Origin: Gammaproteobacteria bacterium | GTDB taxonomy: Bacteria; Pseudomonadota; Gammaproteobacteria; Pseudomonadales; Cellvibrionaceae | Length of the DNA stretch: 64,000 nt | Assembly: GCA_004173475.1 (NCBI GenBank) | Contig: SEBU01000002.1 | Location: forward strand, 496,001 to 560,000 | Direction of reading: 5' to 3' | Position numbers and translations under genes: made by a program | The notes under the pieces: model-generated | Told to the model about the DNA's origin: nothing | What the model saw: only the letters and a program-made list of their open reading frames with translations | Databases searched by the model: none | Part shown: positions 45,848 through 47,451 of the stretch, in pieces | Layout: each line of letters starts with the position of its first letter | Numbering within the stretch: position 1 is the stretch's first letter

Positions 45848-46462
45848 ATGCGGCCACATCTACTTACGGAAGATCAACGCGACTGTTTGCAAGAGATCAC
45901 GAACGTTGCCATGGGGCGAGCGGGCGATAGGTTAGCTAGATTGCTGGATGTATTTGTTGTGCTTTCCATACCCCATGTCAGCATTCTTAACCCTACTGAT
46001 ATTGCTATGGCGCTTCATTCATTAAATCGTGAAAGCAATGATGTAGTTCACGGTGTTTGTCAGGGTTTTATTGGCGGCGGAATTGCTGGCGAAGCCATGC
46101 TGATTTTCAACGGCACAGATTTCAACGATCTTGCGAAATTACTTCAGTATGACCGCGTTGCCGATGAGCGGGCCGAGTATGAATTACTTATGGACACGGC
46201 AAATGTCCTCAATGGCGCCTGCTTGAAAGGGCTCGCAGAACAGCTGGACACTCATTTCAGTTTCGGCCCGCCTATGCTGCTTGGCCAACATTGTAATATC
46301 ACCGACCTATTACAAAACAACAATATGACCTGGAAGCAGGCGTTGGTGGTGGAAATAAACTACTCTATTGAAAATCACAAAATTAATTGCGACCTTCTTC
46401 TGGTAATTGCTGAGCATTCAATTACTGGATTGGTGGAAAAGCTGAATTATTTACTCGACTAA
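45848..46462 (+). CDS. CheC-like CheY-P phosphatase family protein
   Basis: 204 aa. The first active-site motif of CheC/FliY/CheX proteins, [DS]-x3-E-x2-N-x22-P, is complete: Asp12, Glu16, Asn19 and Pro42. The second repeat reads Glu112-x3-Asp116-x2-Asn119, so its catalytic Glu is replaced by Asp. Such proteins dephosphorylate CheY-like receivers. No che cluster is adjacent. It sits 17 bp before a diguanylate cyclase and is probably co-transcribed with it, pointing to a stand-alone signalling module. ATG start; divergent from the M3 peptidase. Confidence 0.8.
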   Translation: MRPHLLTEDQRDCLQEITNVAMGRAGDRLARLLDVFVVLSIPHVSILNPTDIAMALHSLNRESNDVVHGVCQGFIGGGIAGEAMLIFNGTDFNDLAKLLQYDRVADERAEYELLMDTANVLNGACLKGLAEQLDTHFSFGPPMLLGQHCNITDLLQNNNMTWKQALVVEINYSIENHKINCDLLLVIAEHSITGLVEKLNYLLD

Positions 46463-46479
46463 GTAGCTGTATTTATCCA

Positions 46480-47451
46480 ATGACAACAACCAATAAAGAA
46501 TTCACCAAATTTTTCGAAGACGTCCACTGGCTGATGGATATCTTGCAAAATATTGATGTTGGGTTGGTAGTTATGGATAAGGATTATAAGGTGGCGCTGT
46601 GGAATAGTTTTATGCAAAACCACAGCGGAAAGACACCCGAAGATGTTTTACAGCGCAGCATATTTGGCGTGTTTCCGGAGTTGTCTGAATCCTGGTTTCG
46701 ACATAAGGCGCAGTCAGTATTTGTGCTGCAGAATGCTACCTTTACAACTTGGGAACAACGTCCCTATTTGTTTCGCTTCCCGCACTATCGCCCTATAACG
46801 GGCACAGCTGAACATATGTATCAAAACAGTACCATTATTCCGCTGATTGATTCCAAGGGTCACGTTGAACAAATTTGCCTGATCATTTATGACGTCACAG
46901 ATACTGCGATTAATAAATTGGCGCAACAAAAGGCCAATAATCAATTACAAAGCTTGAGCCGCACAGATCACCTCACCGATTTATACAACCGTGGTTATTG
47001 GGAATTGCGATTGATTCAGGAATTCAAACGCTTTGATCGTTACAATCAAGCTTCTACTTTAATTATGATGGACATAGATCACTTCAAGAAAGTGAATGAT
47101 AAATATGGCCACACAGTGGGTGATGACGTTATTCGGCAAGTAAGCCGGGCAATTAAAGAACAAGTACGCGACCTGGATATTGCTGGGCGGTATGGTGGTG
47201 AGGAGTTCGGGTTAATTTTGACGGGCACCGATACCCATGGTGCAAGTATTTTTGCAGAAAGACTACGCACGACTATTGAAAAAATGGTCGTTATTTCCGA
47301 AGGGCAGCAAGTTAGATTTACCATTAGCATGGGAATTTCGCAATTGAGCGCAAATATCTCTGATCATCGACAATGGATTGAGAAAGCTGATGCTGCGCTT
47401 TATCAATCAAAAGAAGGTGGACGGAACCGCTTTACCATTTCCGCTAGCTAA
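46480..47451 (+). CDS. PAS-GGDEF diguanylate cyclase
   Basis: 323 aa, no membrane helix. A PAS-like sensor occupies about 15-145 (VGLVVMDKDYKVALWN). The GGDEF domain is about 155-320: LTDLYNRGYWE, MDIDHFKKVND with the metal-binding Asp, and the active-site GGEEF at 239-243. An inhibitory RxxD site (Arg230, Asp233) lies exactly five residues before it, so product feedback is expected. It makes cyclic di-GMP from GTP, controlling biofilm and motility. It shares an operon with the CheC-like gene. Its last 4 bp overlap the convergent DUF1415 gene. Confidence 0.92.
   Translation: MTTTNKEFTKFFEDVHWLMDILQNIDVGLVVMDKDYKVALWNSFMQNHSGKTPEDVLQRSIFGVFPELSESWFRHKAQSVFVLQNATFTTWEQRPYLFRFPHYRPITGTAEHMYQNSTIIPLIDSKGHVEQICLIIYDVTDTAINKLAQQKANNQLQSLSRTDHLTDLYNRGYWELRLIQEFKRFDRYNQASTLIMMDIDHFKKVNDKYGHTVGDDVIRQVSRAIKEQVRDLDIAGRYGGEEFGLILTGTDTHGASIFAERLRTTIEKMVVISEGQQVRFTISMGISQLSANISDHRQWIEKADAALYQSKEGGRNRFTISAS

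Follow-up and report, generated by a model that had tools for sequence, protein, structure and literature searches.

The window (the whole 64,000-nt stretch of DNA analysed) carries two forward-strand ORFs separated by 17 bp. The first (45848..46462) encodes a 204-aa protein predicted to be a PdcB-like, CheC-type phosphatase of receiver (REC) domains, an assignment based on its likeness to T. maritima CheC in both sequence and fold. The second (46480..47451) encodes a 323-aa protein predicted from its Pfam PAS and GGDEF matches to be a PdcA-like diguanylate cyclase. On either side lie genes of the opposite strand, one for a peptidase M3 before the pair and one for a DUF1415 protein after it. 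A search of the contig revealed no CheW-domain match within ~70 kb of the pair; the nearest one (C42:615698) is ~72 kb away, and the CheZ gene of the window genome lies on another contig, C1. Both the gene arrangement described in the earlier note and its placing of the pair far from any chemotaxis cluster are borne out by these positions.

The motif of CheC active sites has the consensus D/S-x3-E-x2-N-x22-P. Site 1 of the window protein, D12-x3-E16-x2-N19-x22-P42 (45881..45973, forward strand), matches it in full, and site 2, E112-x3-D116-x2-N119-x22-P142 (46181..46273, forward strand), has D116 at the position where E is expected. We compared these residues with those of 186 distinct relatives, defined as CheC proteins scoring at least 100 bits with our CHEC model. 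The site-1 E was found in 184 of 184 aligned rows with a residue at this position and the N in 186 of 186; in site 2, D replaces E in 172 of the 186 relatives, and N is retained in 136 of them. The combination of one complete and one degenerate site, correctly read from the window earlier, is therefore typical of most of the family and not a peculiarity of this protein.

Curated profiles do not recognise the protein: Pfam CheX (PF13690) gives 26.2 bits, below its cut-off of 27, NCBIfam CheC_Thtogales gives 38.2 bits versus a cut-off of 250, and PF04509 (CheC) gives no match. Falling below the Pfam CheC/CheX cut-offs is a matter of detection and not of biology, and one relative (L126) passes Pfam CheX with 28.4 bits. 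T. maritima CheC matches the window protein in sequence with an E-value of 1e-5. The predicted structure (pLDDT 83.0, pTM 0.81) finds T. maritima CheC as its best PDB matches in Foldseek (2f9z, E 1.5e-12; 1xkr, E 9.1e-12), so that a CheC fold is supported by modelling. L126 is a natural REC-CheC fusion; the two domains of its AlphaFold model (pLDDT 78.6, pTM 0.51, linker below 50) match CheY-like and CheC structures separately. 'Class II' CheC proteins are said, in a review by Muff and Ordal, to lie outside chemotaxis.

The PAS domain of the second protein spans residues 18–143 (46531..46908, forward strand), scores 30.1 bits with Pfam PAS (cut-off 22.6) and matches 3mxq with an E-value of 1.6e-21; we propose it as a putative docking site for a receiver. 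It has no second copy in the window genome, its only match at an E-value of 0.001 being itself. The GGDEF domain follows at residues 156–320 (46945..47439, forward strand) and is recognised by NCBIfam and Pfam models (153.3 bits with Pfam GGDEF, cut-off 23.8) as well as by its match to 3ign (E 4.7e-53). Its catalytic motif, GGEEF (residues 239–243, 47194..47208), is intact, as is an I-site motif, RDLD (residues 230–233, 47167..47178), located five residues ahead of it. The domain is likely to be catalytically active, since the related cyclase L052 matches 3ign with an E-value of 3.9e-83. In the available text of PMC4215984 the 3ign domain, from Marinobacter, is reported as an inactive dimer, and it is also cited there, in the title of a reference, as catalytically active with bound c-di-GMP. 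The description of an active-looking cyclase with an I-site holds at the level of motifs.

The gene-neighbourhood survey suggested by the earlier note was run at several taxonomic depths, with first-tier models (CHEC, PASd, RECc and GGDEFd) built from loci around the relatives of the window. Within the genus, CheC, PAS and GGDEF follow each other on one strand in 20 of 20 loci, the window's own included, and REC was found beside the pair in none of them (flanks of up to 1.5 kb; the upstream flanks were shorter in L006, ~0.5 kb, and L015, ~0.3 kb). In the best 80 of at least 562 GTDB loci, PAS lies directly behind CheC in all 80, GGDEF follows in the same frame in 77, in another frame in one and is missing from two, and a REC-CheC fusion occurs in 29. 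In the GTDB scan, identities of 96–97% were found with loci of Gammaproteobacteria and Cellvibrionaceae MAGs and of 87–90% with loci of entries under the name Cellvibrio, which makes the window part of a Cellvibrio-type genome.

An even draw of the class yielded a CheC match in 68 of 369 genomes. The 70 loci that we inspected take in 71 of the 74 matches listed; the three left out (G127, G239 and G248) are all weak. PAS was found directly downstream in all 47 strong loci (CHEC at least 100 bits), a figure that is partly circular because 13 loci of this same class survey had served to build a second PAS model, PAS2. Forty-six of these 47 loci carry REC in cis, fused to CheC in 28 and directly upstream in 18, and the sole strong locus without it is that of the window. 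Among the 23 weak loci (below 100 bits), REC was present in 20 and a downstream PAS in 15. At the level of the phylum, CheC was matched in 103 of 398 genomes. Within 65 chosen loci (25 new ones among the best 30 and 40 picked by hand, with no random draw), strong loci had PAS in 42 of 42 and REC in 41 of 42 cases, G023 being the exception, and weak loci had PAS in 21 of 23 and REC in 14 of 23. Three loci (L053, L147 and L154) enter the counts as lacking REC but break off at a contig end, and so say nothing on this point. Among 29 loci around relatives, three consist of REC and CheC without any PAS; these are loci of a CheC paralogue.

The ORF next after CheC is a PAS ORF in 185 of 202 cases, versus 1 of 1105 for other ORFs in the same loci. 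The adjacency of CheC and PAS is therefore not due to chance, with the reservation that the loci used for this control had been gathered by CheC similarity. We conclude that the CheC-cyclase pair belongs to a conserved unit with the gene order REC-CheC-PAS-X. A lack of conservation in the neighbourhood, which the earlier note had named as counting against its interpretation, is not what the surveys show.

The last member of the unit varies. The PAS domain of relatives can be followed by GGDEF, by GGDEF-EAL, by a histidine kinase, by a kinase with REC, or by nothing (six of these proteins were analysed with Pfam); the PAS domain is thus kept in relatives that have no GGDEF. REC, CheC and PAS are the most widely kept parts, and contact among them is therefore likely to be the core of the unit. 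That outputs are swapped behind one PAS domain points to contact with this domain as the conserved core.

Several loci illustrate individual states of the output. In seven Thalassolituus/Oceanobacter-like loci (L132, L151–L153, L158, L160 and L167) the PAS-GGDEF gene is kept with a degenerate GGDEF motif. A PAS-only ORF of 143–189 aa, with no GGDEF, stands behind REC-CheC in L048, L050, L145, L156, L172, L175, L182, L269, L270, L272, L273, L274, L276, L277, L296, L325 and L326; in these the output is gone and the PAS retained. L325 lies on a 109-kb plasmid of Pseudomonas asturiensis, which carries both the REC-CheC and the PAS-only genes. In L234 (genome G403), L293 and L286, REC-CheC is followed by a protein of 422–439 aa with a related PAS (84–120 bits); the one in L234 has a histidine-kinase ATPase domain and would be a candidate receiver kinase in that species. 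Three loci from distant Pseudomonadota (L304, L320 and L322) have two tandem CheC-like genes, followed by a PAS protein of 694–935 aa in which a match to the REC model is present as well.

With no receiver beside the pair, we searched the window genome (G000) with the REC of a fused relative. A single orphan receiver of 121 aa stood out, at G000:C1:570509-570871 on another contig than the pair (E 8e-48); the next best REC had an E-value of 2e-13, and 103 REC-like stretches were listed as first-look candidates in this genome. The residues D9, D10, D54, S82 and K104 are all present in the orphan and invariant in 18 of 18 aligned receivers. Thirteen genomes from the window's genus, family and order, hand-chosen among CheC carriers, each gave one such strong receiver (E < 1e-39); in two of them, G040 and G041, it lies directly before CheC.

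In a set of 57 related genomes, CheC (E at most 0.001) occurs in 40 and the receiver REC (E at most 1e-30) in 41, and the two agree in presence or absence in 56 when kinship is ignored. This co-occurrence partly reflects shared descent, 21 of the 57 genomes belonging to one genus, and in some of the 57 REC and CheC form one gene. The only mismatch, G010, an assembly of 670 contigs, has REC without CheC. The 15 family members outside the genus divide into 10 with both CheC and receiver and five with neither, and in eight of the 10 the CheC-cyclase pair has neither a neighbouring nor a fused REC. One of the family members, 'Candidatus Endobugula sertula' (G021; L041/L121), has a receiver match at G021:C5:92841-93059 that covers residues 49–121 only and a cyclase ORF cut to 183 residues; the short cyclase and partial receiver may represent joint decay or an assembly error.

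The receiver at G000:C1:570509-570871 is thus probably that of the window's pair, a pairing in trans that is circumstantial since no receiver lies beside the pair. These results qualify the description of the CheC protein as stand-alone, which is incomplete: the genome has one matching orphan receiver in trans, and relatives that fall outside the clade of the window mostly have theirs in cis. No kinase was seen next to the orphan receiver in the window genome (L072). In a relative (L074) a LytTR-type regulator and a kinase-like ORF, read by eye, adjoin the receiver on the opposite strand.

The surroundings of the unlinked receivers and the phylogenies of both proteins bear on where the receiver came from. 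A BrkB/YihY-like gene, an AvtA-like aminotransferase gene or both were seen by eye to adjoin the unlinked receiver in 11 of 11 loci (both in seven), and Pfam identifies the neighbours in the window genome as BrkB and Aminotran_1_2. In L060 and L062, the locus with one of these neighbours consists of REC and then a second CheC, with no PAS behind. The REC tree groups the unlinked receivers with those of L060 and L062 and with the cis receivers of L051, L056 and L057 (support 0.95), apart from the cis receivers of the closest relatives of the window CheC. Because of this grouping with the second CheC paralogue, the orphan does not appear to be simply the original partner moved to a new place. 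In the CheC tree, 43 loci, the window type among them, form a REC-less clade (support 1.0) that is embedded among loci that have REC, in cis or fused. Read simply, these results would mean a single loss of the receiver that once belonged to the pair, which may now use that of the paralogous locus, whose own CheC would since have been lost in most members.

The CheC, cyclase and orphan receiver genes are all under purifying selection (pN/pS 0.04–0.24, from 4–5 relatives each, with synonymous changes mostly saturated).

A system of the same composition, PdcABC (BTH_II2363-2365), has been described in Burkholderia thailandensis by Wang et al. 2022, as cited in the available text of PMC9899790 and PMC12421958. 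According to the former, the cyclase PdcA is inhibited when phosphorylated PdcC binds to its PAS domain, and becomes more active when the phosphatase PdcB removes the phosphate from PdcC; PdcB is tabulated there as a CheC/CheX domain, and the inhibition of PdcA by PdcC is repeated in the available text of the latter. Loci of B. arboris and B. multivorans have the order REC-CheC-PAS-GGDEF, and their four domains score 156–169 bits with models built from relatives of the window.

On the strength of the PdcABC reports and these Burkholderia loci we propose the same scheme for the window, and we think it probable that its pair supplies phosphatase and cyclase to a PdcABC-like switch, with the receiver gene located at another place in the genome. 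By homology to PdcABC, a kinase would phosphorylate the orphan 121-aa receiver on D54; the phosphorylated receiver would bind the PAS domain of the cyclase and keep it inactive; CheC site 1 (E16/N19) would then dephosphorylate the receiver, freeing the cyclase and raising c-di-GMP. The sign of control is one that we infer from this homology. The RDLD motif suggests that c-di-GMP could in turn act on the cyclase by feedback at the I-site. A link from receiver dephosphorylation to c-di-GMP, as supposed in the earlier note, is thus the best reading of the locus; its characterisation as little described is not supported, PdcABC being a described system of the same kind.

We also considered covariation among the three conserved domains. 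Strong pairs numbered 7.5 per 1000 for REC-CheC, 11.2 for CheC-PAS and 4.5 for REC-PAS (Neff 89, phylogeny included), so that a REC-PAS contact is not favoured. Covariation was rejected as support for contact, being dominated by phylogeny and lacking a REC-PAS preference.

The proposed scheme has to be weighed against three others. The same parts might work with the opposite sign or by direct contact: CheC loaded with phosphorylated receiver might itself bind the PAS domain and set cyclase activity, its phosphatase activity being secondary, comparable to the action of B. subtilis CheC-CheY-P on CheD. CheC-PAS is indeed the tightest gene adjacency of the unit, retained where REC has been displaced, and has, as a weak further point, the most strong covarying pairs; for B. 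subtilis CheC, binding of CheY-P is said in the available text of PMC3579733 to outweigh catalysis. Against this, the invariance of the site-1 E and N wherever present argues that catalysis matters, and the available text of PMC9899790 and PMC12421958 describes PdcABC as a direct inhibition of PdcA by PdcC. We regard such an arrangement as unlikely.

It is quite improbable, in our view, that CheC acts on a receiver of some other pathway, be it chemotaxis CheY or the general REC pool, and shares only its regulation with the cyclase: the window has no cis receiver and the genome has many REC-like stretches, as this would require, but nearly all strong class-survey loci have REC next to CheC or joined to it in one gene, the genome has a CheZ of its own on another contig, and the ~70 kb around the pair are free of CheW-domain matches. 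Still less can be said for a phosphatase left without a receiver, with no role beyond scaffolding or regulating the cyclase, while the orphan serves something else at its own locus. The BrkB-family and aminotransferase genes adjoining the orphan would fit this reading, as would the presence among its closest relatives of receivers paired with a different CheC. Outside the genus, however, the receiver is missing from all five family members without CheC and present in all eight in which the pair lacks a cis REC (as its second half only in G021), and the CheC gene keeps a conserved active site under purifying selection; we consider this reading very improbable.

The PdcABC-like switch with a receiver in trans names one specific receiver for an otherwise partnerless phosphatase-cyclase pair, and widens a single Burkholderia operon into a family that many Gammaproteobacteria possess and that has more distant forms elsewhere in the Pseudomonadota. 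If the receiver was truly taken over from a paralogous module, the locus would be a natural case of partner exchange in two-component signalling. A broader reading would make REC-CheC-PAS a general plug-in switch of Pseudomonadota with freely exchanged outputs behind the PAS domain (cyclase, cyclase-phosphodiesterase, histidine kinase or none), rewired in the Cellvibrio lineage by loss of the pair's original receiver and capture of that of a paralogous module, whose CheC was then lost; we advance it tentatively, as a possibility somewhat short of even.

Among known regulators, cyclases of the WspR/PleD type combine REC and GGDEF in one protein, so that phosphorylation of the receiver controls the GGDEF domain. 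In the window lineage, by contrast, the cyclase takes its input through PAS and is a different protein from the receiver, and there is a predicted dedicated phosphatase. The chemotaxis phosphatases T. maritima CheC (1xkr) and FliY share with the window protein the predicted fold and the E/N motif; it differs from them in the D for E of site 2, in having no CheW-domain gene nearby and in scoring below the Pfam and NCBIfam cut-offs. Psyr_0886 of Pseudomonas syringae, a 'CheC-like' response regulator consisting of REC and a CheC domain, appears in the available text of PMC2222644 and PMC5654926 among receivers tested with the kinase BphP1. The relative of this type on the P. asturiensis plasmid differs from the window in being fused and then followed by a PAS-only protein without GGDEF.

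The closest likeness is to PdcABC, which, in the available text of the two papers, likewise comprises a PAS-containing GGDEF cyclase, a CheC/CheX phosphatase and a phosphate-accepting receiver. In a literature search that was thin on subscription papers, we noticed no other described case in which a CheC-type protein is functionally tied to a cyclase. What sets the window lineage apart is a receiver gene that is not in the operon and whose product groups with a paralogous lineage; apparently, it is a PdcABC-like system that works with a receiver in trans, drawn from a paralogous module.
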